Of a stretch of DNA of 37,975 nt, positions 3,203-29,661 are shown piece after piece; the stretch's first letter is position 1; each line of letters opens with the position of its first letter. The notes under the pieces are model-generated. The model was not told the origin of the DNA, searched no databases, and saw only the letters and a list, made by a program, of their open reading frames with translations. The DNA is taken from positions 1 through 37,975 of the forward strand of contig JAKJGY010000021.1 in the NCBI GenBank assembly GCA_022704145.1, written 5' to 3'. A program made the translations under genes and the position numbers. This DNA is from Verrucomicrobiota bacterium (GTDB taxonomy: Bacteria; Verrucomicrobiota; Kiritimatiellia; RFP12; UBA1067).

Positions 3203-3267
3203 TCTTCGCAATTCCCTTCGCGTCGTGTTCTCTTCATATCTTCGGGCTAACCTCTGATTGAGGATCA

Positions 3268-3304
3268 AAAATAGCAGGGAAAATAGCATAACTCTCGCTG
3301 CTAT
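3268..3304 (-). promoter_or_regulatory. candidate operator of the R-M-like operon
   Basis: Two identical copies of AAAATAGCA occur 12 bases apart (3268-3276 and 3280-3288). An inverted TGCTAT follows at 3299-3304. They lie 66-100 bases upstream of the methylase start in unusually AT-rich sequence for this window. R-M operons are often controlled by repeated operators, but no controller-protein gene is visible here, so function is inferred. Confidence 0.35.
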
Positions 3305-13800: not shown

Positions 13801-13872
13801 CAGATTCGTCACGATCCCGCACGCGACCGCCGAAACTCTCAGCGTCAATAACCACCTTGAACTGTGCGTCAT
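10807..13872 (-). CDS. secretin (PilQ/GspD-like, Amuc_1098-type)
   Basis: Outer-membrane secretin channel of 1021 residues. The signal peptide (residues 1-26, ending LSAQ) is followed by a Pro/Ala-rich tandem-repeat linker (about 60-115), then a helical TPR-like region (about 120-330), secretin N-domains (about 420-600) and the C-terminal secretin core with ADISMILHMLSQRSDTDLLSAPKVVTKSGQ. The closing part is GGLITEARKTIEDKIPFLGDIPYLGRLF, the classic secretin signature. AGGAG lies nine bases before the start. It is the last gene of the cluster and corresponds in size and order to Amuc_1098 of Akkermansia. The pilus ATPases and pilins are not in this window. Confidence 0.9.
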   Translation of the reverse strand: MTHSSRWLLTLRVSAVACGIVTNLSAQDELDALLNPAAQPKPAVEAPRKEEPAPAPVAEPPAMEQPAAPAPVVEAPAAPAPVAEAPAAPAPVVEAPAAPAPVAEAPAAPAPAAEQPAVADGADRDNLVSELVVLETIRRKSLDDHGFASLETARKALRDGDYPLAREQYKQALEFIGNRPANQAARTEASQGMAEALYREAKLTMKQGDIDKAVPLATQAQERGHPQAARLLEALKKPAAKDAVDASSISHRINEPEYKTSRDDIRKRLRRSRQYYVTAEYDKALEECELILRDNPHNVEAMGLRDQIAERMHAVADVEFEATRSLMIKDVRKIWTPERYAIESSQMPKGGKMDLGTKELVKDISVGKSDEQIISKKLREIVIPEVTFRPPATIIDAVDFFKQASRDYDNPEIPVEQRGVNLVLKLKTAAGGAQPAAPAETDIFSGAAPAAAPGVPVIPALSARFINLWDALKLVCDVTSMKFRIRGNIVMIVPADDPDDLLVTRSYNVLPSLSDRLGAASSEMGANANAGNADNTFIGTTNMDSRQDWKDFFQKMGVTWPDGSSISYMATIGKLRVTNTAEQLAVFEQVLEDLNVTPRLIEIEARFVEVSQKDLNSLGFEWLLNSDFNFNAGGFLDKALNLKEFSNKPVQLTDAAGNLLFASDGVTPLMGYAPYTRPGTASGVGYVNTVDGLQPIAIGAGQYGTAAANGHNMSLNAIDGTTYSMGSRYLSTPGNPISGEGKSTNDQFMRLNAFMGNADISMILHMLSQRSDTDLLSAPKVVTKSGQEAIMKVVTEYIYPTEFEVQISQQGNSGSSINSGGSGEPLAMVEPQNFEMREVGVILQVVPEVSAEGQMINLLLNPQVVSEPVWKNYGTKIPKNVYRPATAQELLLNPTQTVVTETAYTELPMEQPFFHVRSVSTQLSIYNGATVVMGGLITEARKTIEDKIPFLGDIPYLGRLFRSRSEESDKRNLLVFVTARLVDPAGRAVRVSGGESPLLSGGNLPSALTAPATEGAATAAP
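13541..13684 (-). repeat. 30-bp tandem repeats in the secretin linker
   Basis: Four full 30-bp units starting at 13541, 13571, 13601 and 13631, plus a partial fifth, encode repeats of APAPVAEAPA or APAPVVEAPA. Valine and alanine variants alternate, which implies a 60-bp higher-order duplication. The peptide is a flexible, proline-rich periplasmic linker; copy number is likely to vary between strains. Confidence 0.85.
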
Positions 13873-13953
13873 CTGGGGAGACTCCTCTTTGTGTGGCAGC
13901 TTTTTACCCTATGAACAGTAAAATGGAAGCTAACTATACCCCGATTCCGGAAA

Positions 13954-15030
13954 CTAATCAAGCTTCCGAACAACTTTTGTTTCATCCGTCTTCACATTCC
14001 GGATCACGGCCTCGGTCTTGGTGTTGTCCACCGACTCCACCCGGTACGTCTCCTCGCGGAGTTTGAACGTGCCGCCCTCCAGGGCTGACACCTCTGTACC
14101 ATCGAGCGGCAGGGTGAAGACCGCTTCGATATCCGTGACCATCCCACGCTCATTGACTTTCAGCGTCAGCTCCTTGCCGTCGGACTTCCGCTTGACGGTG
14201 GTTGTGGAGACGTCCACCTTCATCGGGATACCGGGCGTAAGCGGGTTGGGCCGCTCCTCAAACTTGACGGTCGCGCGGCCGGCCACGTAATCGGTCTCGC
14301 CGATCGGCTGCCCTTCGCGCACCCAGAACGTGCGGGGGTTCGGCCCGGCCAGGTTAAACACAAGCTGGTTGCCGTCGGGCATGGTGTTGACGGCGCTGAA
14401 GACCAGCGGCAGACGCTTGCCCCTCAGCTCTTTCACGCGCAGCAGGTTGACGATGGACGGATGGCTCTTGGCGTCCTTAGGATCCGTCTTCGCCTGATAC
14501 TCCTCCACATTCGTGAACCCGTCGCCGTCAAGATCGCCCTTGGCGTCGGACGGATCCTGCGGGTTCAGGCCGAGCGCGTTCTCCAGCTTGTCGGGGATGC
14601 CGTCGCGGTCGGTGTCGATGCCGTCGCCTTGGGGCGCCTTGACCAGGGCGGGCTGCGGCGCTTCGCAGAAGGGGCAGACGGCCGCCTCGAAGGGGATCGG
14701 CTTCTGGCAAGGCCCGCTGACGCAGGCGACGCGGCGCTCGGGCGTCAGGAAGCCGGCCCGCTGGGCGTCGTCCGAAGGCGGAAGCTGGAAAGGCGTACGG
14801 ATCTGCTTGAGCGCATCCTCATACTCCCCCATGTCCATGGCGGGCATCACAGCCGCCTGCGGCTTGCGACGGCTCAGCTCACCCTCGAAGGCCGTCTCGC
14901 TGCGCCGCCGCTCGGCGCCCGCGCTGGTCAGGTAATAGAGCGAGACCGCGAGCAGAACCAGCACGAGCACAGCCACGATCTTGTCATAGTGGCGGACAAC
15001 AGGCAGGTTGGTGTTCAGTTTCAGGGCCAC
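13954..15030 (-). CDS. Amuc_1099-like membrane-anchored protein with TSP3 repeats
   Basis: The 358-residue protein has one N-terminal TM helix (about residues 17-35). A four-cysteine knuckle follows (C103, C108, C119, C122; CPFC), then thrombospondin type-3-like calcium-binding repeats at about 136-178 (DTDRDGIPDKLENALGLNP, DLDGDGFTNVEEY). The C-terminal beta-rich half includes LVFNLAGPNPRTFWVREGQ, which resembles PilP-type domains. It starts three bases after the stop of the PilO-like gene. By position it equals Amuc_1099 and is probably the inner-membrane/periplasmic link to the secretin. The calcium motif suggests metal-dependent assembly; this is inferred. Confidence 0.75.
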   Translation of the reverse strand: MALKLNTNLPVVRHYDKIVAVLVLVLLAVSLYYLTSAGAERRRSETAFEGELSRRKPQAAVMPAMDMGEYEDALKQIRTPFQLPPSDDAQRAGFLTPERRVACVSGPCQKPIPFEAAVCPFCEAPQPALVKAPQGDGIDTDRDGIPDKLENALGLNPQDPSDAKGDLDGDGFTNVEEYQAKTDPKDAKSHPSIVNLLRVKELRGKRLPLVFSAVNTMPDGNQLVFNLAGPNPRTFWVREGQPIGETDYVAGRATVKFEERPNPLTPGIPMKVDVSTTTVKRKSDGKELTLKVNERGMVTDIEAVFTLPLDGTEVSALEGGTFKLREETYRVESVDNTKTEAVIRNVKTDETKVVRKLD

Positions 15031-15033
15031 GGC

Positions 15034-15996
15034 TTACACTCCTTCGAACGAGTAGACGTCGAGGTCAAGCCTCACGCTCAGGGGCGGCTCAAGCTCGGGA
15101 TCGGTCACGATGCGGTCAACATGCGAGAGGGCGGACAGGTCCGCCGGGGCAGGCGCGCTGCCGTCAGCCGCAGCCGGCTCGGAACCCGGCCTGTCCTTCT
15201 TGCGGCTCTCGCGCAGCGCGAGGGGATCCGCCGTCTTGTGAAACTCCGCCTCCGCCACCACCACGAACAGATCCAGCGCCGCCAACCGGTTGAGAGCGTC
15301 AACAAAGGCCCCGGGCCGGGCCTTAAACTCGAAGGAGAAACGCTGCTTGGAGAAGAGCCCCTGACCCGCATCCTGCGTCGCCACACGCGCGGCCGCACGG
15401 CCGGCGCCCTTCCTCCTGCCGCGCGGCGCCGCATCCTCCACCGCCTGCTCGGCCATCCCATCGTCGAAGGCCTCGCGCCCCACCTTATCCAGGCTGAGGA
15501 TGTTCGCGGCATACAGGGCCTGGCAGACCTGCTCGATCACCGCAAGCTGTCCGCTCAGCCGGGCCACATGCTCCTTCTCTGGCAACCGGTCCTCGCCCAG
15601 ATACTTATCGAAGCCGAACTTGAAGCCGGCCTCCACAACCTTGCCCTTCACCGCACCGGTCTGCGCGGAGAGCGCGCGGACCTTGGCCTGCAGGCTCTGC
15701 TTGAAGACCGCGGGCGTCTGATCCTCCAGCGGGATATCCCCGCGGTGCACGAGGTTGGACGCGGACGCGAGCCAGGCCTCCAACGCCCCGCGGTCTTCCC
15801 GCACGCGGGCGATATTCTCATCGCTGGGGTAGGGCTTGGCGCCATAGAGGCTCAGCAACTGGTCGTAGTCCTGGTTGCGGGCCTCCTCCGCCTCGCCACA
15901 GTCCCCCATGGCCTTGATCAGAAATCCGCCAACCCCAAGGCAGGCCAGCCCGAGCACCGCCGCCATCGCTATCAGGATGATGTTCTGCCGTTTCAT
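15034..15996 (-). CDS. PilO-like protein (Amuc_1100 type)
   Basis: A 320-residue protein with a single N-terminal TM helix (about residues 6-28), a coiled-coil/helical periplasmic stretch, and a C-terminal ferredoxin-like region ending LSVRLDLDVYSFEGV. That arrangement and length match Amuc_1100 (317 residues), the Akkermansia surface protein structurally related to PilO. A central Gly/Arg/Ala-rich linker (about 190-210) separates two folded parts. The start overlaps the PilM-PilN stop by four bases. Its expected role is alignment-complex assembly between inner membrane and secretin. The Akkermansia protein's host-signalling activity cannot be assumed here. Confidence 0.75.
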   Translation of the reverse strand: MKRQNIILIAMAAVLGLACLGVGGFLIKAMGDCGEAEEARNQDYDQLLSLYGAKPYPSDENIARVREDRGALEAWLASASNLVHRGDIPLEDQTPAVFKQSLQAKVRALSAQTGAVKGKVVEAGFKFGFDKYLGEDRLPEKEHVARLSGQLAVIEQVCQALYAANILSLDKVGREAFDDGMAEQAVEDAAPRGRRKGAGRAAARVATQDAGQGLFSKQRFSFEFKARPGAFVDALNRLAALDLFVVVAEAEFHKTADPLALRESRKKDRPGSEPAAADGSAPAPADLSALSHVDRIVTDPELEPPLSVRLDLDVYSFEGV

Positions 15997-17690
15997 TTCT
16001 CGTTCGCACCCTTCGGGCCGGAGGCCTCCGCCAGCTTCGCCTCGATTGTGAACTCGATCAGGAAGGCCTCGATGTCTTTGACGCCGACGATCTGGATATC
16101 CTGCGGGCCCTTCCCGAAGACCGCCTGGCTCCGCAGCGCCTCGCTCAGCTCCTCGGCCGCCGTTGCCTTACGTCCCGCCGCCAGCGCCTTCGCCTCGATC
16201 GCCTTGAGCTTGTCGGACCAGCCGCGCCCGACGATCCGCACGCCTGTGACCTCGCCCGCCTCATCCTTGATCGGCGCCAGGTCTGTCAGCCACATCCCCT
16301 CGAACAGGCTCTTGCGGATCGCGGCCACGCGCTTCTGCCAGGCGCTCCGCGAGGCGACCACCGCCCGTACCGCATCGGCCTTGCGCTGCACCTCGGCACG
16401 CTCCCGCAACGCCTCGTCCATCCGCTTCTTCATGCGGTTGGCCGCAGTCAGGTCACGCTCCACCACCACCTTCTGGTCGGCGTACAGCCTGCCCATCTGC
16501 CGCTCATACAGCGTCCACGTGCCGAGGCTCAGCAGGACCCCCGCCGCAGCCAGCCCGAAATAGGGCATGCGCTTCATGAAGGACTTATGCTTGGCGATCT
16601 CCGGCGGCATCAGGTTGATCTCGATCGGGCAGGCCAGCGAGCGGCGCAACGCCAGTCCGACCGTCTCCGCCAGCACGAACGCGTCCGTCGCCGCCTTCTC
16701 GCGGTTCACGCGCGGCCCGACCGCAACGTTGAGGAAGGGGTTCAGGTGCGTGACCTCGATCTGCAGCTTCTCACGGAAGAAGGTGTCGAGGTGCGGCAGC
16801 ACCGCCGAACCGCCCGTCAAAAGCAGCCGCACCGGGGCCGTGCCGCCCTGCTGGCTCCGGTAAAAGTTGACCGAACGACTGATCTCGGCGTGCAGGCGCG
16901 TCACCACATTGCGCACGATCTTCGACACCCGGTCCGCCTGGTCGTCCTCGCTCGCGTAGACGCCTCCCAGCGAGACGAAGCCCTGCTCGCGCTTCAGCCG
17001 CTCGGCCTCCGCCAACGGGACCTGGAAACTCTTGGCCAGCTCCTGCGTGATGGCGTTGCCCGCCACCGGGATGCAGCGGCTGTAGATCTTCTCGTCCTCG
17101 ACAAAAATCAGGTTGGTCGAACGCGCCCCGATATCGAGCACGACCGAACACCCCGTCAGATCCGGGTAGCTGTACCGCAGCGCGTTGCACAACGCCATCG
17201 GAGCGACGTCGACCACCTCAGGCTCCAGGCCGGCCGCCACGACCGCGCCCGTGATCTCGCGCACATTGTCGACCTTGGCCGCCACAATCATCGCGCTCTG
17301 CTCGCCCGTGGCGTCGTCGCCGATGAACTGGTGGTTCCAGACGATCTCGTCCATCGGGAAGGGGACGTTCTGCTCCACCTCGTACTGCACCATCTGCAGC
17401 AGCTTCTCGCGGCCCACCGCAGGCAGCCGCACAAAACGGGGGAAGACCACCTGCCCGGAAAGCGAAAGCATCAGCGGCGCCCGCCGGATGCCGCGCGCCT
17501 TCATGATCTCCCGGATCGCGGCCGTGATGCTCGCCGCCGAAGAGCCCCCCTCACTGTCCGGATCCACGCCTAAGTCGCCCACGCCGTAGTTCGTCAACTC
17601 CGGCGCGCGACCGCTCCGCACATGGAATTCGGCCAGAACAACTTTGCTCGCGCCTACGTTCAGCGCGAGGATGCGGTCTGAGGCAAACAC
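15993..17690 (-). CDS. PilM-PilN fusion, pilus assembly protein
   Basis: Residues 1-350 are a PilM-type actin-fold ATPase: LALNVGASKVVLAEF, a EVEQNVPFPMDE segment, and SVVLDIGARSTNLIF near 182-196, with LLTGGSAVLPHLD near 290. Residues 355-363 (PIEINLMPP) are the PilN-type cytoplasmic motif that normally docks into PilM. They are followed directly by a TM helix (about 376-395) and a periplasmic coiled coil plus ferredoxin-like domain. PilM and PilN are therefore fused in one 565-residue chain. The gene corresponds to Amuc_1101, overlaps the PilO-like gene by four bases, and its own start overlaps the stop of the first gene by one base. Confidence 0.88.
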   Translation of the reverse strand: MFASDRILALNVGASKVVLAEFHVRSGRAPELTNYGVGDLGVDPDSEGGSSAASITAAIREIMKARGIRRAPLMLSLSGQVVFPRFVRLPAVGREKLLQMVQYEVEQNVPFPMDEIVWNHQFIGDDATGEQSAMIVAAKVDNVREITGAVVAAGLEPEVVDVAPMALCNALRYSYPDLTGCSVVLDIGARSTNLIFVEDEKIYSRCIPVAGNAITQELAKSFQVPLAEAERLKREQGFVSLGGVYASEDDQADRVSKIVRNVVTRLHAEISRSVNFYRSQQGGTAPVRLLLTGGSAVLPHLDTFFREKLQIEVTHLNPFLNVAVGPRVNREKAATDAFVLAETVGLALRRSLACPIEINLMPPEIAKHKSFMKRMPYFGLAAAGVLLSLGTWTLYERQMGRLYADQKVVVERDLTAANRMKKRMDEALRERAEVQRKADAVRAVVASRSAWQKRVAAIRKSLFEGMWLTDLAPIKDEAGEVTGVRIVGRGWSDKLKAIEAKALAAGRKATAAEELSEALRSQAVFGKGPQDIQIVGVKDIEAFLIEFTIEAKLAEASGPKGANEK

Positions 17691-18543: not shown

Positions 18544-19719
18544 TCACCGCACGTTCGCGCGCGCATCGGTTTCCTTTAAGGTAAAACGCGTGCTGACCAC
18601 CGAGTGCTGGCGGCCGTCGGCCCAGTACTTGAGGTACGTGGTCGCCACAACCGTGTCGTCCGGCAGCAGCTCGACCCCCGGATAACCGAGGTCGCCCGTC
18701 TTGTACCCGTGCAGCAGCTTGATGCGGTACTGCCCCGGCAGCGCCTGCCGGATGTCGTCGTACGTGCCGACCCACGCCACAAAATGCCCCTTGGTCGATG
18801 ACTGCGGCGCCTGGTCACGGAAGGCGATCACATACCTCCCGTCCTGGGTCCGCACGCCCATGTGGCGGTCGCCGGTCAACCCCCAGGCCGTATCGGTCGG
18901 CACACTCCACGTCCTACCCTCGTCGCGGCTGAACATCTTGAGGCTCAGGCCCTTGTGCGTGTTCTCACGCATCAGGCAGCACAGCTCGGCCCCGTCCGGC
19001 GAACGGAACACATACGGCTCGCACGGCAACTTGCCCGCCACCGCCGCCACCACGCGCGGCGCGCTCCAGGTGAACCCCCCGTCGGCCGTCACGCTCTGCA
19101 CGACCTCAAGGGTCTTCCGCCCCTCCCCCTTCGTCTCGCCCCGATGGTAAAGGCCCAGATACGTGCCGTCCTTGAGGCGCACGACGCTGCTGAAGGTCAT
19201 CACGCAGTAGAACGCCTCGCCCAAGGGGGGCATCTCGCGCCACGTCTGCCCGTCGTCCTCGCTCATGATGCTGGGCATCGGCGCCCCTTGACGCGTGCCC
19301 AGGGCCGCCGACCACACCCACAGCCGTCCCAGGCCCCGCCCGTCCACAAGACGGTAGATACTGGGACAGTTCTGGTGCGTCCGATACCCCGCGGGCAGCC
19401 CCCCGTCCAGCCGCTCCCACGTCCGCCCGCCGTCACCGCTGCGCGCCATCGGCCCCGCCGCACCGCCATGGTTGACGCACCAGACACAGAAGATCGTCCG
19501 CCCGTCCGGCAGCAGCACCGTGGTCGGATGCCCCTGATACAGGTTGGTCGCGCCCGCCGCCACCACCGTCTGCCGCGCCCCCTCCTGCGACAGGTCGACC
19601 ACCGGCAGCCGCGCCGCCTCACGCCCGTACGCGACAGGGCCCTCCTCAGCCGCCACACACCCCACCGCCAGGCTGAATATACCCAGCGCCACCCCACTCC
19701 TCCACCCCCGCTCTGCCAT
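18544..19719 (-). CDS. secreted exo-alpha-sialidase-like Asp-box protein
   Basis: The 391-residue protein has an N-terminal export signal with a lipoprotein-like LAVGC at about residues 16-20. Four Asp-boxes (S/T-x-D-x-G-x-T-W) are visible: [24 protein letters not shown] and SRDEGRTW, as in six-bladed sialidase/BNR propellers. The start is ATG at 19719, because AGGAGG lies eight bases upstream; the 18-codon extension is spurious. Substrate cannot be fixed: sialic acid is the usual one, but many verrucomicrobial Asp-box proteins act on other glycans or bind only. It precedes the pilus operon on the same strand and follows the wecE gene by 28 bp. Confidence 0.78.
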
Positions 19720-19747
19720 CTCAACACCTCCTGTTAACGAATCCGTT

Positions 19748-20938
19748 TCAGCCTGTATGCCCGTAAAACGCACGAACCGTGCCGATGACTCGCTTCACCT
19801 GCCCAGCGGTCAGTCCGTAGAACAGCGGCAGGCGTAAAAGACGGTCGACGAAACGCTCGCACTGGACCAGCTCGGGCCCGAACCCCTTGTCCCGATAATA
19901 CGCCGAGGACCGCAGGCTGAGATAGTGCGAGGCCGACTGGATGCCGCTCTCTTTCAGATACGCCATCAGCCGCGCACGCTCACGCGCTGTGCGGCAGACC
20001 AGATAATACATATGCGCGTTATGCGTGGCATAGTGCGGCACCTGCGGGATGCCGAACAACCCCTCCTCGGACAGCGGGCCAAGCCCCTCCTGATACTGGC
20101 GCCACAGGCTCTTACGCCGGCGCTGCACACTCCTGAGCTTTTCAAGCTGGCCCCACAGAAAGGCCGCCGTGATACCGGAAGGCAAGAACGAGGAGCCTAC
20201 ATCAATCCACTCATACTTACTGGCCTCACCCCTCTGGAACTCGGCCCGGTTCGTCCCCTTCTCCCAGATGATTTCCGCGCGCCGGACAAACTGCGGATCA
20301 TTAATGGCCAGCATGCCCCCCTCACCACACTGGATGTTCTTGGTCTCATGAAACGAGAAACACCCGAAATGCCCGATGCCACCTAAGGGATACCTGTTGT
20401 TCAGCCGCCTCAGCCGCCTGTGCCACGGCAAAGGCGTCTCCGACAGATCATCGGTGTAATAGGAGTCGACCGCCTGCGCCGCGTCGGCGATCACCAGCAG
20501 ACCGTACTTCTGTGCCAAAGCCAGCACTTTCCGCATGTCACAGGCAACGCCCGCATAGTGCACAGGCACGATCGCCCGCGTCCGTCGCGTGATCAGCGAC
20601 TCAATCCGCTCTGCGTCGATATTCGGATTGTCCGGCGCACTGTCGGCGAAGACGATCCTCGCGCCCTGCCGCACGAAGGCCAGCGCCGTCGAGACAAAGG
20701 TGTACGAGGGTACGATCACCTCGTCGCCCGGCTTGATGTCAGCAAGGATCGCGGCCATCTCCAACGCATCAGTACAGGAGGTGGTCAGCAGGCATTTGGT
20801 AAAACCGTAACGCTCCTCAAAGAACCGCTGGCATCTCTGCGTGAAGGGGCCGTTGCCCGACGTCTTTCCGCTTGCGACCGCCTGGGCGATATAGCCCAGC
20901 TCTTTACCGACCACCGCCGCCTTGTTGAAGGGGATCAT
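19748..20938 (-). CDS. wecE: dTDP-4-amino-4,6-dideoxygalactose transaminase (WecE/RffA-type)
   Basis: PLP-dependent DegT/DnrJ/EryC1 aminotransferase that would make a 4-amino-4,6-dideoxy sugar nucleotide for envelope polysaccharide. It follows E. coli WecE closely: [41 protein letters not shown], then the catalytic lysine in FSFHETKN and [12 protein letters not shown]. Compared with E. coli there is an insert of about 20 residues before GGIGHFGCF. The true start is at 20938, overlapping the GT2 stop by four bases; the open frame upstream is a shadow. The 396-residue length is normal. Coupling to the GT2 gene suggests its product is that enzyme's donor sugar. Confidence 0.9.
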
Positions 20939-21864
20939 CTCTCGCCGCCTCCCCAGACCTCTTTGACCGTCGCCTGCGGTCGCCCCCCCACACTGAGATA
21001 GAGGCGGCCGAGATACTCGCCGAGCACCCCGATCGCGAATAACTGGGTTCCGCCCAGGACGAGCGTCAGGATCACGAGCGTAATCCAGCCTTCGACATGG
21101 TGCTCGAGAACCACGTACTGGACCAGGTAGAAGAGCGCCAACACAAACCCGCCCAGCGAGCAAGCTAAACCGACACAGGAAGAGAAACGCAGCGGCCAAA
21201 CGGAAAAACCCGTGGCCAGGCGCAGAAAGACCAGCGTCGACCTGACCAACCCGTAGTTGCCCTTTCCACAGTACCTTGCGCGATGCTGGATATCGAGCTG
21301 GCCGACATTTCGCGTGACCCCGAAAATCAGCCCGTCCACATACGCGAAAGGGCCGGTGTATACGACCAGCTCCTTGACAATGTCGCGGCGCAACACCTTG
21401 AACGGCGAGAGGTATATCTCCTTCGGCTTCCCGATCACCGTCTCCGCCAGCTTTCCGTTCAGCCAACTCCCGATGTTTTTCCATACCGCCTGGCACTTGC
21501 GGGCAAACCGGGCGTAACAGACATCGAGGTCTCGCTCCCGGCAATGTCCGTAAAGCGCAGGAATGTCGAAGGGCGAGTGCTGCAAGTCGTCGTCCATCAC
21601 CACCGCATAAGCCCCACGCGCCAGCCTTAACCCGCACAACACCGCGTTGTCCTGCCCTGCGTTCTTACGCAAATTGACGCCGATCACACGCCGATCTTCC
21701 GCGCACTCGCGCTTGATGGCCTCCCAACTTCCGTCCGCACTCTGGTCGTTGACCAGAATCACCTCGTAGCTGAGGCCACGCAGCGCCTCCCGGATCTGCC
21801 GGTTCAGCTCGGCGACACACCCCTCGCTGTTGTACACAGGTATGACCACGCTCACTTCGACCAT
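20935..21864 (-). CDS. GT2 polyprenyl-phosphate glycosyltransferase (ArnC/GtrB-like)
   Basis: The 309-residue protein begins with the GT2 fold (VSVVIPVYNSEG) and has the metal-binding VVMDDDLQHSP motif near residue 90. Two C-terminal TM helices follow (about 230-255 and 265-290). This is the DPMS/ArnC/GtrB layout: enzymes that move a sugar from a nucleotide to undecaprenyl phosphate at the inner membrane. GGAGG lies four bases before the ATG. It overlaps the upstream methyltransferase gene by 13 bases and wecE by four, so the three are one operon. The likely donor is the WecE product, by inference. Confidence 0.85.
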   Translation of the reverse strand: MVEVSVVIPVYNSEGCVAELNRQIREALRGLSYEVILVNDQSADGSWEAIKRECAEDRRVIGVNLRKNAGQDNAVLCGLRLARGAYAVVMDDDLQHSPFDIPALYGHCRERDLDVCYARFARKCQAVWKNIGSWLNGKLAETVIGKPKEIYLSPFKVLRRDIVKELVVYTGPFAYVDGLIFGVTRNVGQLDIQHRARYCGKGNYGLVRSTLVFLRLATGFSVWPLRFSSCVGLACSLGGFVLALFYLVQYVVLEHHVEGWITLVILTLVLGGTQLFAIGVLGEYLGRLYLSVGGRPQATVKEVWGGGER

Positions 21865-22454
21865 ACGACCTCCACAACCATGTCGCGTGCGACGCTCACG
21901 ACCCGATAATCGAACCCGATCCTCCGGCTCAGAATCTCCAGAGCCGCGACCAGCGAGGCCGCGTCAAAGCGGAACGGCACCTCTTTTTCCCCCGCGCGCG
22001 TGCCCTTTCGCGACAGATAACGCTGCAACCGATTTCCGTGAGCCCAGTTGCGGACAGGCTCAGAGATCAGAAACCGCGCCGAAGCGGCCTTCACGCAACT
22101 GAACAGCTCCGGCAGGCACGCGTGAAAATGATAGAGCGAGCCCATCATCACACAGACGTCACAGCGCGGCAAATCCGTGAACCGGGCCAGATCCGCCTGC
22201 CGCGCGTCAAAACCCAGCGCGCATGCCCGCTCAACAAAGTGCTCGCACAGATCCAGACCCACCCACCCCCGGCCGCTCCCCCGACACTTCCGGGCAAACG
22301 CACAATCCCCGAAACAGAGTTCGAGCACAGACCGGTCGCGCTCGCGCAGCAACGCGCTGACAGCGTCAAACCTGGCGCGATACCGCCCCCGATACAGCAC
22401 GCTCATCACCAGCCGGTAACACCACACATGACGATAAATCAACCCTCCACTCAT
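21852..22454 (-). CDS. SAM-dependent methyltransferase
   Basis: Class I methyltransferase of about 200 residues with motif I as VLELCFGDCAFA, then WVGLDLCEHFVERA (acidic loop) and a CDVCVMMGSLYHF segment. No membrane segment is seen. The start is uncertain: ATG at 22454 (MSGGLIYRHVW) gives a compact protein, while an upstream ATG at 22535 would add 27 residues of Arg/Lys-rich sequence. Neither has a good ribosome-binding site. It overlaps the GT2 gene by 13 bases and probably modifies the same envelope sugar or lipid-linked intermediate; substrate unknown. Confidence 0.72.
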   Translation of the reverse strand: MSGGLIYRHVWCYRLVMSVLYRGRYRARFDAVSALLRERDRSVLELCFGDCAFARKCRGSGRGWVGLDLCEHFVERACALGFDARQADLARFTDLPRCDVCVMMGSLYHFHACLPELFSCVKAASARFLISEPVRNWAHGNRLQRYLSRKGTRAGEKEVPFRFDAASLVAALEILSRRIGFDYRVVSVARDMVVEVVWSK

Positions 22455-22540
22455 GACGTGTCCGCATCTTACACGAATCGAACTCTCCGGCAACCCCTTT
22501 TTTATTCCTCGCCGTTTCAGCAATTCGCCGGCCAACAGGG

Positions 22541-22569
22541 TTGAACAGGGCTTTCCTGTATGCTATGGT
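22541..22569 (+). promoter_or_regulatory. sigma-70-type promoter for the GT-C gene
   Basis: TTGAAC (22541-22546) and TATGGT (22564-22569) are separated by 17 bases, and the start codon is 41 bases beyond the -10. An AGGAG ribosome-binding site follows at 22599-22603. The promoter lies in the 155-bp divergent spacer with the methyltransferase gene. Confidence 0.5.
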
Positions 22570-22609
22570 ACGGTCATTGATTGGGTCTGCAAGCTGCTCA
22601 GGAGTCCTC

Positions 22610-24613
22610 ATGTACCCGTTCTTTGTCGCGACACGCCTGTCGGGAAAATCGTCTTTTGCCCGCCTCTTCTTCGGGTTTGCGCTTCTGTGCCTGCTCATTG
22701 TTGCGCGCTGGCTCTGGATCGACTGTGACGGCGGCACGCCCTCGCTGCTCGAGTACGGATATTTCGCGACCGACGAGGGCTATTACGCCGCAGGCGGGAA
22801 ACAGAAATACCTGCTGGGAAAATTCATCTCCCTGATCCGCGCAAACCCCAACACCTTTGCGATCTGCCCTTCCTCACATGTCCTGACATGGCTATCCTTC
22901 CTGCTCTTCGGCCAGACCACCTGGGCGCACCGCGTCTTTCCGCTGCTGATCAACACCGCCTCCTGGCTCACCCTCTACGCGTATCTGTCGCGTAAGACAC
23001 TCGCCTGGATCGCCTTCACACTCTGCGCCGTCTGCGTGCTGAACCCCTTCCTGCTCGTCTACTCGCGAACCGTATGCAACGACACGCTCCTCGCCTCCCT
23101 CTTGCTGATCGGCTATGTGGTCACGCGCAAAAGTGGCTGGCGCACGGCATTGCTCGGAGGTTGCCTCTTCGGCCTCGGACTCTGGGTCAAACAATCCATC
23201 TGGCTGCTGGTGCTGTTCGGCTTCAGTGGCGCCGCGATGGCCGCGTCTACCCAAAGCCGCCTGCGGCGCATCGCCTGCTTCACCGTCGGTTTTGCCCTCT
23301 CCTGCGCCCTCCAATACGTGCTCATCCGCCTCTTGCTCCACCCCGACGCCGTCGCCCAAGAGACGTCGATCGACGAGCTGCTCGCAGCCTCCAACTCCAG
23401 TTACGCCCTGCCCAACCCCTTCGACCTCGTCCACACGCTCAAAGGCGTCTCCTCCTTCCCTCGCCTGCCGACCGGCGGGCTGCTGAGCATGTGGACACCC
23501 CTCGTGCTCGTGTTCCCGTCGCTCCTGCTGCTCCGGCGGCTCTCCGACCGCCCTATCCTGTGGGACGGCCGCCTGCTGTTCTACGCCGTGTTCCCGCTCT
23601 ACGCGCTGGGCATCATGATCATGGACGTGTACTACGCCCACTACTTCATCCCTGTCATCGTGTTCTTCCCCGTCCTGTGGCTGATGGCCCGCCACGACTT
23701 GAAACGGTGGTCCGGCCAGGATCGCAAACGGGCCCTGCTGCTCATGGCGCTGGCCGGTGTGTTCGTCTTTTTCAGCTTTCACACGTTTGATGTTGCGGAA
23801 GCCCAGGCCGAAAGCCTCAACGACTACCTCGCGAACGCCTACAATCTGCCACAGCGCATCGTGTGGACACGTAACGGCGGCTACATCCTCGTTGGCGGCT
23901 TATGCTTATTGGCGCTAGCCCTACTCGCACATCAGCGTCGGCCGACATGCTCCGCCTTCCTCGGGTTGTCGCTTTCAGCGCTGGGCGTCTCCGAACTCTG
24001 TTACAGCCGTCTTCCGCTTAGCGAGGCCTACAAGTACACCTCGCTCTTCCCCTCCACCATGCGGGACGTGGCCTACGTGCTTCAGGCGGGCTCCATTGCC
24101 CTTTTCTTTGCCGTCTGGTGCATGCCTGGCATCGTCCGGAAAGGAACGCGCTGGCTCCTGTTCTTCTTGGCGCTGATGGCCTTCGGAACAGGTGCCAATC
24201 CCCGCTGGCGTAAAGGCCTCGTGGAACTGACGGAGCGTGGCCAACTGCATAAGAGGGCCGTGGCTGACCTCTCCCAGATCGTCCCTGATGATGCGATCGT
24301 CTTCGGCGAGCGTGCGCCGCAACTCTTTCTGTCGCTCAAAGCGCGCGTCTCACCGATCCCTAACGGCGACCCCGTTCCGACCGTGCTGAGGATCCATCAG
24401 GAGTATCCGGAACGGCCGCTCTTCGCGCTGATCGATGCCGAACATAACTATCATTTCACCCATTACAATAACAACCCGGATAAGATTCGCATGCAGGTCA
24501 TCCATACCCTGAAGCTCCCCAGCTTCAACTCCGGCCTGCCGTGCGACGTCTTCCTGATCCGCCTGACCGTCCTGAGCCCGGCTTGCCAAACAGCCGCGCC
24601 CAAGACGCCTTAG
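22610..24613 (+). CDS. GT-C membrane glycosyltransferase (GT39/ArnT-like)
   Basis: The 667-residue integral membrane protein has about a dozen TM helices and, after the first, the acidic motif ATDEGYYAAGGK in the first extracytoplasmic loop. That is the catalytic site of GT-C enzymes using polyprenyl-phosphate sugars. The C-terminal 120 residues are soluble (VPDDAIVFGERAPQLFLSL). Start ATG 22610 follows AGGAG by five bases; the 23-codon extension is spurious. Divergent from the wecE/GT2/methyltransferase operon, it is the expected final step of that module: transferring the lipid-linked sugar onto lipid A, a glycan or protein on the outer face of the inner membrane. The acceptor is unknown. 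Confidence 0.8.
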   Translation: MYPFFVATRLSGKSSFARLFFGFALLCLLIVARWLWIDCDGGTPSLLEYGYFATDEGYYAAGGKQKYLLGKFISLIRANPNTFAICPSSHVLTWLSFLLFGQTTWAHRVFPLLINTASWLTLYAYLSRKTLAWIAFTLCAVCVLNPFLLVYSRTVCNDTLLASLLLIGYVVTRKSGWRTALLGGCLFGLGLWVKQSIWLLVLFGFSGAAMAASTQSRLRRIACFTVGFALSCALQYVLIRLLLHPDAVAQETSIDELLAASNSSYALPNPFDLVHTLKGVSSFPRLPTGGLLSMWTPLVLVFPSLLLLRRLSDRPILWDGRLLFYAVFPLYALGIMIMDVYYAHYFIPVIVFFPVLWLMARHDLKRWSGQDRKRALLLMALAGVFVFFSFHTFDVAEAQAESLNDYLANAYNLPQRIVWTRNGGYILVGGLCLLALALLAHQRRPTCSAFLGLSLSALGVSELCYSRLPLSEAYKYTSLFPSTMRDVAYVLQAGSIALFFAVWCMPGIVRKGTRWLLFFLALMAFGTGANPRWRKGLVELTERGQLHKRAVADLSQIVPDDAIVFGERAPQLFLSLKARVSPIPNGDPVPTVLRIHQEYPERPLFALIDAEHNYHFTHYNNNPDKIRMQVIHTLKLPSFNSGLPCDVFLIRLTVLSPACQTAAPKTP

Positions 24614-24647: not shown

Positions 24648-27011
24648 TCAGAAGTCGCTCTGCGCCGTGCGCGAGATGATCTCCTCCTGCAGCTCGCGGC
24701 CGAGATCGCAGAAGTAGTCGCTGTAGCCCGCCACACGCACGATCAGGTCGCGGTACTCCTGCGGCCGGCGCTGCGCCTCGCGCAGGGTCGCGGCGTCCAC
24801 GACGTTGAACTGGATATGATGGCCGTCCAGCCGGAAGTAGCCGCGCACCAGGCTGGCCATCTTGTCAATCCCCTCCTGCCCGCGCAGCGTGCCCGGCAGA
24901 AACTTCATGTTGAGCAGCGTGCCGCCCGTACGGAGCTGGTCCATCTTGGCGGCCGACTTGACCACCGCCGTCGGCCCCTGGCGGTCCGCGCCCTGCACCG
25001 GCGAGATGCCTTCGGAAACCGGCGCGCCCGCCTTACGCCCGTCGGGCGTCGCCCCGAGAACCGCGCCGAAATAGATGTGGCAGGTCGTGGGCAGCATGTC
25101 CACATGGTAGCGCCCGCCACGCAGGTTGGGCCGGCCGTCGATCGCCGCGAACAGTGCGTCGAAGACCCGCTTCATGAGGCCGTCGGCCGCGTCGTCGTCG
25201 TTGCCGTAACGCGGGGTCTTGTTCCACAGCGCGAGGCGCAGCGGCTCGCTGCCCGCAAAATCCGCCCGCAACGCGTCGAGCACCTGCCCCATCGTCAGCG
25301 CGCCCAGCTCGAACACGTGCGTCCGCAACGCCGACAGGCTGTCCGTGATCGTGCCGATACCCACACACTGGATATAACTGGTATTGTAACGCGCGCCGCC
25401 CGCGTTGTAGTCCTTGCCGTTCTTGATGCAGTCGTCGATCAGCACGGAAAGGAAGACCGCCGGCATCTCGGTCGCATACATCTTCTCGATGAAGAGGTTG
25501 CCCGCGACCTTCAGATCCACCACGTGGCGAAGCTGCCGCTCAAAGGCGGCGAACACCTCGTCCAGCGAGCCGAAGCCGCGCGGGTCGCCGGTGCGCGGCC
25601 CGAGCTGCCGCCCGGTGCGCGGGTCGCGCCCGTCGTTGAGCGCCAGCTCCAAGATCTTCGGCGTGTTGAGGTAGCCGGTCAGCACGTACGCCTCCTTGCC
25701 GAAAGCGCCGGTCTCGACACAGCCGCTGGTGCCCCCCTCGCGCGCGTCTTCAAGCCGCTTGCCGCAACGCACCATCTGCTCCACCACGCCGTCGGCGTTA
25801 AAGACCGAGGGGTAGCCGTAACCCTTGCGGATCACCTCGCAGGCGGCCTTGAGGAAGCGGTCGGGGTTCTTGCGGCTGAGCTGGAGGTTCGCCTGCGGCT
25901 GGAGCAGGTGGATCTCGTCGATCACCTCCAGCATCAGATAGGACAGCTCGTTGACGCCGTCGCCGCCGTCGGACAGGAGCCCGCCGAGGTTGATGTTCGT
26001 GAAGTCGTTGTAGGTGCCGCTCTCCTCGGCCGTCACGCCGACCTTGGGCGGCGCGGGGTGGTTGTTGAACTTGATCCAGAAACACTCCAGCAGCTCCTTG
26101 GCCTGCTCGCGCGTCAGCGCGCCGGAATCGAGGTCGCGCCTGTAGAACGGATAGAAGTAACGGTCGAGGTGGCCGGGGTTCATCGCGTCCCAGCCGTTCA
26201 GCTCGGTGATCGTGCCGAGATGCATGAACCAGTACATCTGCAGCGCCTCGCGGAAGTCGCGCGGCGGCTCGGCCGGCACCCGGCGGCAGGTCGCCGCGAT
26301 CTGCCGCAGCTCGGCGGAGCGCTGCGGGTCGGCCTCAGCGGCGGCCAACCGCTCGGCCAGCTCGGCGTGCCGCCGCGCGAAGGCCATCACCGCGTCGCAC
26401 GCGATCGCCATGGCCGACAGCTCCTCACGCTTCGAGGCCGCCTCAGGGTCATGCAGGAAATCAAGCGCCGCCAACGCGGTGGCGATGTCGTCCTTAAAGC
26501 CCAACAGCCCCTTCTGATAGAACTTGCCGTCGAAGGTGGTGTGGCCCGGCGCGCGCTGCTCCATGAACTCGGTGAAGAGCCCCGCCTCGTAGGCGGCCTT
26601 CCACGCGTCGGAGAGCCCCGCGAAAAGCCTCTCGCGCATCGTGCGGCCGCGCCAGAAGGGGATGACCTCCTCGCGGTAGACGCGCACGTCCTCCTCGGTC
26701 GTACGGTAGCGCGTCATCTTGCGGCTGCCGAGGATGCGCAGGTTCTCCTCGCTGTGGCAGGTCAGCTCCGGGTAGGTCGAGACCGCCTTGGGCCTGGGCC
26801 CACGCTCGCCGACAATCAGCTCTCCCTCGCCAAGGTAGAGCGCCTGGTTCTCATACAGGTACTCGAACGCCTTGGCGCGCATGACCGGCACGGACCACTT
26901 GCCGATGTTCTCACGGTAAAAGCGCGTGATCCACACCGCGCGCTCTGTGGAAATGGAAGGCTCCGCCTCAAAGCTCGCCTGACGCAACCTCGCGACCCGC
27001 TCGTTCATCAT
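24648..27011 (-). CDS. hypD: glycyl radical enzyme, trans-4-hydroxy-L-proline dehydratase (HypD-type)
   Basis: Oxygen-sensitive glycyl radical enzyme of 787 residues (the Clostridioides HypD has about the same length). The radical-relay cysteine (residue 431) lies in GGTSGCVETGAFGKEAYV and the glycyl radical in VRVAGYSDYF (Gly762). HypD features seen throughout include FTEFMEQRAPGHT, KFNNHPAPPKVG, GARYNTSYIQCVGIGTITDS and MLPTTCHIYFG. HypD dehydrates hydroxyproline to pyrroline-5-carboxylate, normally followed by reduction to proline; no P5C reductase gene is in this window. The start is ATGATG at 27011/27008 behind TAGGAGGGG; the open frame beyond is a shadow. A related dehydratase of other specificity is possible. 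Confidence 0.85.
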   Translation of the reverse strand: MMNERVARLRQASFEAEPSISTERAVWITRFYRENIGKWSVPVMRAKAFEYLYENQALYLGEGELIVGERGPRPKAVSTYPELTCHSEENLRILGSRKMTRYRTTEEDVRVYREEVIPFWRGRTMRERLFAGLSDAWKAAYEAGLFTEFMEQRAPGHTTFDGKFYQKGLLGFKDDIATALAALDFLHDPEAASKREELSAMAIACDAVMAFARRHAELAERLAAAEADPQRSAELRQIAATCRRVPAEPPRDFREALQMYWFMHLGTITELNGWDAMNPGHLDRYFYPFYRRDLDSGALTREQAKELLECFWIKFNNHPAPPKVGVTAEESGTYNDFTNINLGGLLSDGGDGVNELSYLMLEVIDEIHLLQPQANLQLSRKNPDRFLKAACEVIRKGYGYPSVFNADGVVEQMVRCGKRLEDAREGGTSGCVETGAFGKEAYVLTGYLNTPKILELALNDGRDPRTGRQLGPRTGDPRGFGSLDEVFAAFERQLRHVVDLKVAGNLFIEKMYATEMPAVFLSVLIDDCIKNGKDYNAGGARYNTSYIQCVGIGTITDSLSALRTHVFELGALTMGQVLDALRADFAGSEPLRLALWNKTPRYGNDDDAADGLMKRVFDALFAAIDGRPNLRGGRYHVDMLPTTCHIYFGAVLGATPDGRKAGAPVSEGISPVQGADRQGPTAVVKSAAKMDQLRTGGTLLNMKFLPGTLRGQEGIDKMASLVRGYFRLDGHHIQFNVVDAATLREAQRRPQEYRDLIVRVAGYSDYFCDLGRELQEEIISRTAQSDF

Positions 27012-27037
27012 ACCCCTCCTAAACTGAAGTTGTAGAG

Positions 27038-27060
27038 TACATGTTCTGCGGCCACATGTA
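27038..27060. promoter_or_regulatory. 7-bp dyad upstream of hypD
   Basis: TACATGT (27038-27044) and ACATGTA (27054-27060) form a perfect inverted repeat with a nine-base spacer, 27 bases before the hypD start, in the 91-bp gap between activase and hypD. It looks like a dimeric regulator's operator. No regulator gene lies nearby. Confidence 0.4.
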
Positions 27061-27102
27061 AATGTCGGACCGCGCCAGGCTCGCGATGCGCAGCCTAAAC
27101 CC

Positions 27103-28002
27103 CTACACAAACGCCTCGACGCCCGCGGCGCGCAGGCGGGCGGCGAGCGCCTCCAGGCGGGCGGGCGACGGGTCCGCCACCTCGCCGAGGCGCTGCGCCA
27201 TGCCCAAGCGCGCGTACTTCGACATCGCGGCGCGGTGGTGCCCCAGCAGCCGCACGCGCGGGCGCTCCGGCAGCGACGCGACAAAGGCCGCCGCCGCGCT
27301 CACGTTCTCGTCGGTGTCCGTGATGCCTGGAATCACCGGCAGGCGGATCTCCACAGGCCGGCCGTCCGCCACCAGCGCCCGCAGGTTCTCCAAGATCGCC
27401 TCGTTCGGTACGCCCGTGTAACGCCGGTGCGCCTCAGGATCGAGCAGCTTGAGGTCGTACAGCACCAGGTCCGCCAGCGCGGCGACCTGGCGCATCGTCG
27501 ACGGCCGCGCATACCCGCTCGTGTCCACCGCCGTATGTAAACCCTCGTGACGGCACCGCGCCAGCAGCTCCAACAGAAACTCCGGCTGGCCCAGCGGCTC
27601 GCCCCCCGAAAAGGTCACCCCGCCGCCCGACTCGTCAAAGAAGGCCCGGTCCCGCACCACCTCCTCCACCAGCGCGGCGGCCTCAACCTCGCGGCCCACG
27701 CGCGTGAGCGCCTCCGAAGGGCACACGCCCACGCAGGCGCCGCACGCCGTACAGCGCGCCTCCTCACGCGTGAAAGAGCCGCCCGCGCCCGCCTGCAGCG
27801 CCCCCTGCGGGCACTGCGCCGCACACCGCCCGCAGCCGACACACAGCTCCGGCCGCCGTAGCAGCAGGGGCCGGGCCGGCTGGCTCTCGGGGTTGTGACA
27901 CCAGACGCACACGAGCGGACAGCCCTTCAAGAACACGGTGGTCCGGATGCCCGGCCCGTCGTGAAGCGAGAAACGCCTGACATCGAAAATCGTACCTGTC
28001 AT
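27103..28002 (-). CDS. hypE: glycyl radical enzyme activase (radical SAM)
   Basis: The 299-residue radical-SAM enzyme installs the glycyl radical on its partner HypD. It opens with the activase signature FSLHDGPGIRTTVFLKGCPL and the cluster motif CPLVCVWC (CxxxCxxC). Two ferredoxin-type [4Fe-4S] motifs are inserted (CVGCGRCAAQCP and CTACGACVGVCP), as usual in non-PFL activases. GGVTFSGGEPLGQPEF follows, then SAM-binding strands. It is transcribed just before hypD. The start is ATG 28002, or 28008 six bases upstream; no ribosome-binding site is visible and a TACAGT box lies almost on the start, so leaderless initiation is possible. The symbol follows the assignment of its partner. Confidence 0.85.
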   Translation of the reverse strand: MTGTIFDVRRFSLHDGPGIRTTVFLKGCPLVCVWCHNPESQPARPLLLRRPELCVGCGRCAAQCPQGALQAGAGGSFTREEARCTACGACVGVCPSEALTRVGREVEAAALVEEVVRDRAFFDESGGGVTFSGGEPLGQPEFLLELLARCRHEGLHTAVDTSGYARPSTMRQVAALADLVLYDLKLLDPEAHRRYTGVPNEAILENLRALVADGRPVEIRLPVIPGITDTDENVSAAAAFVASLPERPRVRLLGHHRAAMSKYARLGMAQRLGEVADPSPARLEALAARLRAAGVEAFV

Positions 28003-28134
28003 GGCCATACACTGTAAACACGCATGCCCTGAACCGTCAAGCCGCGCCTCCTCCACACTCTCCGTGCCGGCGCGCACGCCACAGTCCCGTCTCGCCACTG
28101 GCAGCACACCCCGTTTTCTGCTATCGTGACACAC

Positions 28135-29661
28135 ATGGGATCGGCTCTGACATCCTCCGGGCAGACGGGTGCGGCCACGGCTGCGGCCGGGCTCCTCGAA
28201 TGCCGCAACCGTAACGTCGGCAACCTGCTGCTGGCGGAACGGGCCGTGCCGTACATCACGATCCTCGCCGCCCTGCTCGGCTTCCGGCGCGAGCATGAGC
28301 TGGAGCCGCTGCACGAGTTCCTCTATAACGCCGTGCGCGCCGGACTGGGCGACGACGCCTATTCGGCCGACGCCTTTAACCAGGATCTCCGCCAGCTCCT
28401 GCTCTGGAACCTGATCAGCGACCGCCTGGAAAAGGAGCGCCTGCGCGGCTACCGCGACACGCGCCGCCGTAAGTTCCGCTACCGCCTGACCGACGAGGCC
28501 GCCGCCTTCCTCCTCTGGCTCGAGGCCCGCCGCCGCGACGACCTCGACCCCGGCGACACCGACACGCGCGACCTGCTCTCCGAACTCATCGGCACCCTGC
28601 GCGAGACCTCCCGTCTGTTTCACAAGACCGGCGCGGACACGCTTGACTATGAGACCGCACGCGGCGTCTTCTACCGCCTCACACGCATGGGCGCGCTGAC
28701 CGACAGCGTGAGCCAGACCCTCGGCGATTTCAATATCCGCCTCCTCGGCTTTGCCGCCAGCCGCTATGACGCCCCCACCGCACGCGCCATCCTCGCCGAA
28801 CTCGAGCGCTTCCTGAAACACTTCCTCAACCGCATCCACACGCTGCGCACCGAGATCACTCCCGAGATCAGCAAGCTGCGGCAAGGTCGCCTGTCCGCAC
28901 GCTGGCAGGCCTGCCTGACCCGCATGGAGGAGGAGAGCCGCGCCACCTCGCACCTCATGCGCACGCGCCTGCCGCACCCCGAGCAGACCCTCGCCAGCCT
29001 CGCCGCCTTCTACGCCGGCGAAGGCACACTCGAAAAGCTCTGCGCCCGCGTCAACACCGCCGGCCTCCTCGTCTGGCGCAAGCTCTATACCCACCTGCGC
29101 GAGCTGGAGCGCCGCAGCCACCGCCTCGAAGACCTCCGCGCCCGTGCCGCCGAGATCGCCCGGCTCCCGCCTGCCACCGTCCCCGCCGCCTTCCTGCGCA
29201 GCCTGCTCGCGCCCGCCCGCCTCATCGGCGACATGCACTTCTGGGACGAGAACGAGAAGGCCCTGCCGCCCCAGCCGCGCTGGGAGCGCCACCGCCTCCG
29301 CGAGGAGTGCCCCCTCTGGCTGGACACCAAAGCCCGCGACGGCCGCGCACCGGCGCAGTCGCTTGAGGAGGCGCGCCTGCAGGCCTTCGACACCTGGCTG
29401 CGCGGACGCGGCCTCGTCCCCCCCGAGGGCGGCACGCTGCGCGTGTCACAGGGCGCCTTCGCCGCGTTCGAGGACTTCCCGCGCCTGCTCGAGCTCGGAC
29501 GTAGCGGCCTGCTCGGGCGCGGCGCACGCCTCGCCAAGCTCGGCCTCGCCCTCGACCCGACCGACGCGCCCGTGCGCGTCGAGGCCGAACGCCACACGCT
29601 CGCCTTCCGCGACCTCCTCCTCCATCCAGCCCCACTCTCAAATCTGAAATCTGAAATCTGA
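28135..29661 (+). CDS. jetA: Wadjet component JetA (kleisin-like)
   Basis: First gene of a four-gene Wadjet SMC defence operon. The 508-residue, mostly helical protein begins with a winged-helix-like segment (AERAVPYITILAALLGF, RRRKFRYRLTDEAAAFL) and then long helices, consistent with the MukF-like kleisin that bridges the SMC heads. ATG 28135 is preferred; a GTG nine bases upstream is also in frame. No ribosome-binding site is seen. The last residues (SNLKSEI) and the stop are encoded by a 7-bp tandem repeat, so the native C-terminus may have been altered. Assignment rests on gene order with JetB, JetC and JetD and on architecture, not on a catalytic motif. Confidence 0.82.
   Translation: MGSALTSSGQTGAATAAAGLLECRNRNVGNLLLAERAVPYITILAALLGFRREHELEPLHEFLYNAVRAGLGDDAYSADAFNQDLRQLLLWNLISDRLEKERLRGYRDTRRRKFRYRLTDEAAAFLLWLEARRRDDLDPGDTDTRDLLSELIGTLRETSRLFHKTGADTLDYETARGVFYRLTRMGALTDSVSQTLGDFNIRLLGFAASRYDAPTARAILAELERFLKHFLNRIHTLRTEITPEISKLRQGRLSARWQACLTRMEEESRATSHLMRTRLPHPEQTLASLAAFYAGEGTLEKLCARVNTAGLLVWRKLYTHLRELERRSHRLEDLRARAAEIARLPPATVPAAFLRSLLAPARLIGDMHFWDENEKALPPQPRWERHRLREECPLWLDTKARDGRAPAQSLEEARLQAFDTWLRGRGLVPPEGGTLRVSQGAFAAFEDFPRLLELGRSGLLGRGARLAKLGLALDPTDAPVRVEAERHTLAFRDLLLHPAPLSNLKSEI

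Follow-up and report, generated by a model that had tools for sequence, protein, structure and literature searches.

A predicted WecE-GT2-methyltransferase operon with a divergent GT-C-like gene in a Kiritimatiellia genome: a candidate cassette for lipid-linked amino-sugar transfer to the envelope

The stretch of DNA analyzed here (the window) is 37,975 nucleotides long and comprises contig G000:C160 in full, from a Verrucomicrobiota bacterium of the class Kiritimatiellia whose genome amounts to 4.57 Mb in 415 contigs and is an estimated 88% complete (G, C, and L numbers denote the genomes, contigs, and loci of this analysis). Four genes between positions 19748 and 24613, all of which were present and confirmed as real, encode a WecE-type aminotransferase, a family 2 glycosyltransferase (GT2), a methyltransferase (MT), and a GT-C-like membrane protein (Table 1). 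The MT, GT2, and wecE genes form one tight operon of overlapping genes, in which MT and GT2 share 13 bp and the GT2 stop and wecE start overlap as ATGA, and the GT-C-like gene is divergent from it. The TTG starts in the open reading frame (ORF) list are probably too early for both the MT gene (22535) and the GT-C-like gene (22541), the latter because homologues start near the ATG at 22610, which is preceded by AGGAG. The four genes probably constitute a cassette that makes an amino sugar, loads it on a polyprenyl carrier, and transfers it to the envelope.

Table 1. Coordinates of the predicted cassette within the window
Feature	Position	Strand	Remarks
wecE	19748-20938	(-)	396 aa, ATG start
GT2	20935-21864	(-)	309 aa
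MT (methyltransferase)	21852-22454	(-)	200 aa, first gene of the operon
Divergent intergenic region	22455-22609	none	155 bp, presumed promoters
GT-C-like membrane protein gene	22610-24613	(+)	667 aa

The aminotransferase is predicted to be a WecE-type dTDP-4-keto-6-deoxyhexose aminotransferase. Both curated WecE models were passed, with 516 bits for NCBIfam PRK11706 (cut-off 375) and 466.7 bits for TIGR02379 (cut-off 434.85), and the cut-off of the ArnB model was missed (201 bits, cut-off 631). The best relatives in the PDB were WecE-type (4piw and 4zah, 384 bits; 6blg, 382 bits), with ArnB at 154 bits, and K200, which lies in HETKN, is presumably the pyridoxal phosphate lysine. All six module WecE proteins of relatives that were scanned passed PRK11706 and five passed TIGR02379, for which that of L041 scored 427.6 bits. 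Genes for the sugar precursor were located on contig C81 of the same genome, which encodes RmlB (497.6 bits, cut-off 365.1), RmlA (473.3 bits, cut-off 360.65), and also RmlD.

The GT2 protein matched Pfam PF00535 at 90.5 bits, has a DDD motif, and shows two C-terminal transmembrane segments (residues 227-254 and 259-283) by hydropathy. A 10-member profile aligned over nearly full length with two PDB entries, sll0501, which we take to be GtrB-type (206 bits), and ArnC (201 bits), and the ArnC equivalog model was missed (141 bits, cut-off 529). The protein is accordingly placed, by profile similarity, in the class of membrane-linked polyprenyl-phosphate sugar transferases, equally close to GtrB and ArnC; since these two matches are equal, the class is clear and the sugar is not. 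The MT is predicted to be a small Rossmann-type S-adenosylmethionine (SAM) methyltransferase. It scored 25.0 bits against PF13489, under the cut-off of 27, and an AlphaFold2 model built from five sequences reached a predicted local distance difference test (pLDDT) value of 73. In Foldseek searches this model matched SAM methyltransferases of a generic kind, the 50 matches listed all having TM-scores under 0.5; such matches cannot separate N- from O-methylation.

The GT-C-like protein matched a single Pfam family, PF13231 PMT_2, at 29.3 bits (cut-off 26.1), and 10 of 12 GT-C homologues matched the same family at E <= 0.01. The motif TDEG (residues 54-57, with DE at 55-56) was invariant in all 12 aligned homologues, and hydropathy places the DE just after the first transmembrane segment (13-39) and predicts a soluble C-terminal part. 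With PMT_2 as its only family, the enzyme might instead glycosylate exported proteins with the amino sugar in a PMT-like manner, and the flagellin of Pseudomonas syringae is reported to be decorated with a modified viosamine (PMC3927599); the PMT_2 label is broad, however, and includes GtlB, which glycosylates teichoic acid (PMC8035078), and no linked exported substrate was identified. Protein glycosylation appears improbable. The first-pass annotation of this DNA had proposed a WecE-type aminotransferase, an ArnC/GtrB-like GT2, and a divergent GT-C-like enzyme with a DE motif, and had suggested a search for genes supplying dTDP-4-keto-6-deoxyglucose. The first and third assignments were borne out by the curated models and by PMT_2 and the invariant TDEG, and rmlA and rmlB were found elsewhere in the genome; the second holds for the polyprenyl-phosphate class, with ArnC no closer than GtrB.

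Co-conservation was surveyed using each of the four proteins as a query against a sample of 288 genomes of the class, that of the window included. MT was present at E <= 1e-10 in exactly four genomes, which are 82-94% complete. GT2 was found at E <= 1e-60 in seven, with at least 60% identity to the window protein only in these same four and 37-48% in the other three. GT-C was found at E <= 1e-30 in 15, with at least 53% identity only in the MT-bearing genomes (twice in G011); the G025 protein is 44% identical, and the matches of the remaining ten genomes reach 28-35%. WecE was the most widespread (40 genomes at E <= 1e-80), and its best four E-values belonged to the four module genomes, the three relatives being 63-72% identical. 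MT, GT2, and WecE form a single block in every one of the four MT-bearing genomes, and the arrangement is therefore beyond chance. The GT-C gene adjoins the block in three of them, divergently in the window and in G011 and co-directionally, downstream of WecE, in G041.

Several further loci of the class carry related genes in other combinations. The second GT-C copy of G011 (L068, G011:C83, 6205-9787; 58% identity) is divergent from a frame-shifted wecE in a 14-kb locus without a GT2 or MT match, and apparently represents a decaying second cassette. In G025 (L069, G025:C145, 2486-10261), the genes ahead of the GT-C encode another GT2, with 22% identity, as well as an NAD epimerase and a thiamine pyrophosphate (TPP) enzyme, and a 673-aa GtrA-domain protein is encoded after it. 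This locus is apparently a donor-swapped three-component system; it is consistent with reuse of the GT-C family alongside varying donor cassettes and supports a lipid-linked donor for that family. Eight module-free loci with WecE of 53-62% identity were fetched, and a different full-length GT2 match (31-33%) lay within about 4 kb in four, directly overlapping WecE in one, with partial GT2 matches or none in the remaining four. A separate cluster, L042 (G018:C72, 6707-14070), contains an ArnC-like GT2, an acetyltransferase-like protein, two KAS III-like proteins, an SDR, a methyltransferase-like protein, and WecE (acetyltransferase-like and KAS III-like labels assigned by eye), together with a small protein that resembles ArnF (48.5 bits against a cut-off of 99), and is a different arrangement of WecE with lipid-carrier genes.

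To look outside the class, 84,980 species genomes were scanned with a pattern that detects close relatives alone; this yielded 24 GT2-related loci, some of them cut by contig ends. WecE of at least 43% identity directly adjoined GT2 in five of these (L016, on a G032 contig; L017; L018; L022; L023), and those outside the class, at 43-46% identity, belong to Treponema (L017 and L018), Acidobacteriota (L022), and an Isosphaeraceae metagenome-assembled genome (L023). The two Treponema loci are near-identical. MT (34-36%) was also present in L022 and L023, and L021 has MT (34%) without WecE. L035 and L036 have a GT2 that is less closely related, with a 47% WecE at a distance of about 2 kb; the other scan loci gave no match or weak aminotransferase matches of 22-30% (L028, L029, L032, L034). 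A GT2 tree of 29 rows was built with 20 of the 24 scan loci, leaving out L029 (truncated, 53% identical, nearby only the weak aminotransferase match), L033, L038, and L039. All eight WecE-adjacent rows fell in a 13-row set with support of 86/92, below the starred level of the tool; its other members are L080, whose WecE stands at a distance of 1.9 kb, and four rows that lack a close WecE, namely L021, L027, L032, and L019, the last of which is truncated at a contig end.

In Treponema, a pair of small SMR-type proteins of 119 and 114 aa, encoded by overlapping genes, comes after WecE and GT2; these matched the ArnE model weakly (23.4 and 22.7 bits, cut-off 92) and EamA at 27.7 bits, just under the cut-off of 28.2, and 31.7 bits. 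A 583-aa protein further downstream, membrane-spanning by eye and with an SDEGFY motif, matched no Pfam or NCBIfam family and was aligned at its DE with the window GT-C profile by hhalign (E 0.00037, probability 36%; two membrane proteins used as controls for this profile gave E 0.37 and 0.27). The proteins of the two Treponema loci are 99% identical and are therefore treated as a single case. In L022 and L023 the module likewise has a membrane protein next to it, but these candidates were not counted as GT-C, because they scored at control level (E 0.14 and 0.29) and had no Pfam or NCBIfam match at E <= 0.01.

These distributions bear on the possibility that GT2 and GT-C form a Gtr-like three-component system for a neutral sugar, that the sugar made by WecE and MT feeds cytoplasmic glycosyltransferases elsewhere, and that the genes are neighbours through a shared surface polysaccharide. 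The near equality of the GtrB and ArnC matches is compatible with this, as are the GT2 homologues that often stand beside multi-spanning membrane proteins (by eye) without WecE and the frequency of WecE without GT2 (40 versus 7 of the 288 genomes at the thresholds used). A merely neighbourly WecE accords poorly, however, with the overlap of the GT2 and wecE genes in the window, the recurrence of their adjacency in four phyla, the other class WecE genes near a different full-length GT2, overlapping in one case, and an operon that contains no cytoplasmic acceptor glycosyltransferase in the window. We regard this alternative as unlikely.

The remaining steps of the pathway were sought among 29 ORFs of the window scanned against Pfam (10 at E <= 0.01 and 19 at E <= 1e-5), none of which was a flippase, a formyltransferase, or a deacetylase/deformylase; for ArnD, the absence of a deacetylase domain refers to these ORFs, and a genome-wide search was not made. 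Each of the four module genomes has exactly two Formyl_trans_N proteins, which we take, from their lengths, to be PurN and Fmt; as two is the number expected for that pair, an Arn-type formyl cycle is unlikely. None of the four passed the ArnF cut-off, and three had no match or a marginal one. All four have LpxC, and an LPS-type (lipopolysaccharide-type) outer membrane is therefore likely. A true Arn-like modification, with the amino sugar placed on lipid A phosphates, would suit the presence of LpxC, the weak ArnE matches of the Treponema pair, and a weak hhalign alignment of the GT-C profile with Escherichia coli ArnT (E 0.0088, compared with 0.27 and 0.37 for the two control membrane proteins), which places the ArnT DE on that of the window protein. 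It is nevertheless very unlikely: RYA and YFEKP, given as ArnT motifs in PMC5377068, were absent from the 12-homologue GT-C alignment, no ArnA or ArnD domain occurred in the scanned ORFs, and the formyltransferase and ArnF counts are those just given. The lipid A acceptor of the first-pass annotation is an unsupported guess backed by plausibility, with nothing to connect the GT-C to lipid A, and the set that it considered a potential full path has no linked flippase. Its parallel with Arn survives as a shared logic and fails in the particulars, since the ArnT motifs and, among the window ORFs, the formyltransferase, deformylase, and flippase are absent.

Comparison with three-component systems (a GT-A loader, a flippase, and a GT-C) makes amino-sugar transfer through a lipid carrier the simplest reading of the cassette. 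RmlA and RmlB would provide dTDP-4-keto-6-deoxyglucose, which WecE would aminate, most likely to dTDP-Fuc4N. This product would be the donor for GT2, which would move the amino sugar onto undecaprenyl (polyprenyl) phosphate at the cytoplasmic side. An unlinked flippase would turn the lipid-linked sugar over, and the GT-C would transfer it, by way of the DE motif, to an outer acceptor. The MT would methylate the sugar, at either N or O, and could act ahead of the loading step or once it is complete. The gene identities, the operon, its co-inheritance, and the presence of the precursor genes are established from sequence, whereas the exact sugar, the use of the WecE product by GT2, the site of methylation, the flippase, and the acceptor are inferred. 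A more specific version holds that the intermediate is a methylated 4-amino-4,6-dideoxyhexosyl polyprenyl phosphate, that MT replaces the Arn formyl/deformyl cycle in committing the sugar, and that the GT-C family swaps donor cassettes (WecE-GT2-MT here, TPP-enzyme/epimerase/GT2/GtrA in G025); taken as a whole it is a speculative and rather improbable proposal.

A number of results weigh against the lipid-linked amino-sugar reading. The assignment of the GT-C is affected by its profile of 12 members, which matched no PDB sequence at E <= 1, by a single-sequence AlphaFold2 model that failed (pLDDT 42.5), and by the probability of only 4.6% attached to the ArnT alignment. The sugar is left unfixed by the GT2 class, because a separate 10-row set of the GT2 tree (support 100/98, eight of the rows from Pseudomonadota) has no close WecE nearby, and the GT-C family is not bound to one sugar, because G025 pairs its member with another GT2 and other synthesis genes. 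WecE of 61-64% identity also occurs outside the module in some genomes of the class. The window has no linked flippase gene; searches of its genome turned up a single unlinked GtrA protein and a single EamA protein of 349 aa, and nothing matched the ArnF model. The first-pass annotation had made its proposal depend on co-conservation of the GT-C gene with wecE and GT2, and this was borne out, as the four genes co-occur in four genomes. Less similar GT-C homologues, however, are present in 11 of the 288 genomes that have no GT2 match at E <= 1e-60, and in G032 the GT-C is unlinked to the block. Contigs C282 and C548 of G032 were considered as possible neighbours and rejected, as they share no overlap and C548 runs on into a different gene.

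Other genes of the window were annotated in passing. Downstream of wecE, at 18544-19773 (-), lies a gene whose product resembles BNR-repeat sialidases (PF13088, 62.3 bits); because the module in L016, L040, and L041 has no homologue of it alongside at E <= 1e-3, it was not included in the cassette. On the other side, 24648-27284 (-) encodes a glycyl radical enzyme that matched the trans-4-hydroxy-L-proline dehydratase model at 1218 bits (cut-off 1100), and 27103-29292 encodes a radical SAM/Fe-S protein that is likely its activase. An EcoRI-type adenine methylase (PF13651, 414 bits) overlaps a GmrSD_N-domain protein (75 bits) at 864-3289 (-), in a lower-GC stretch, and the two are a possible restriction-modification pair. 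A secretin (PF00263, 122 bits) and a PilM-like protein (PF11104, 135 bits) mark 10807-17690 (-) as a predicted set of genes for either a type IV pilus or a type II secretion system.

If the proposed reading is correct, lipid-carrier amino-sugar decoration would reach past Ara4N-type sugars to WecE-derived ones and would span Kiritimatiellota, Spirochaetota, Acidobacteriota, and Planctomycetota, and a WecE gene directly adjoining a GtrB/ArnC-class GT2 would serve as a marker for finding such systems. The presence of MT together with the missing formyl cycle offers a clear and testable contrast with Arn. A limited literature search met no description of a WecE-derived polyprenyl-phosphate donor, although one may be in print.

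Among known systems, the closest in design are those in which a GT-A polyprenyl-phosphate sugar synthase, a flippase, and a terminal GT-C act with a lipid-linked donor (PMC11127046 and PMC8035078). The cassette shares its GT-A loader class and its putative GT-C terminal enzyme with GtrA-GtrB-Gtr, CsbB-GtcA-YfhO, and the Citrobacter pentofuranose system, and differs in adding its own WecE and MT, in the flippase, which was not found, and in a GT-C without a PDB sequence match at E <= 1. With the Arn pathway (ArnB-C-A-D-T-E-F) it has in common an aminotransferase, an ArnC/GtrB-class loader, and a DE-motif membrane transferase, to which the Treponema version adds the small-protein pair with weak ArnE matches; WecE takes the place of ArnB, MT is extra, and linked formylation and deformylation and the ArnT motifs are lacking. 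Its logic is similar to that of Arn, yet the cassette is a different pathway: the ArnC and ArnB cut-offs were missed widely, in addition to these absences. WecE scoring above its cut-offs and the rmlA and rmlB genes are shared with the enterobacterial common antigen pathway, in which WecD and WecF are the partners of WecE; the operon described here has no partner of that type and instead links WecE to a polyprenyl-phosphate GT2.

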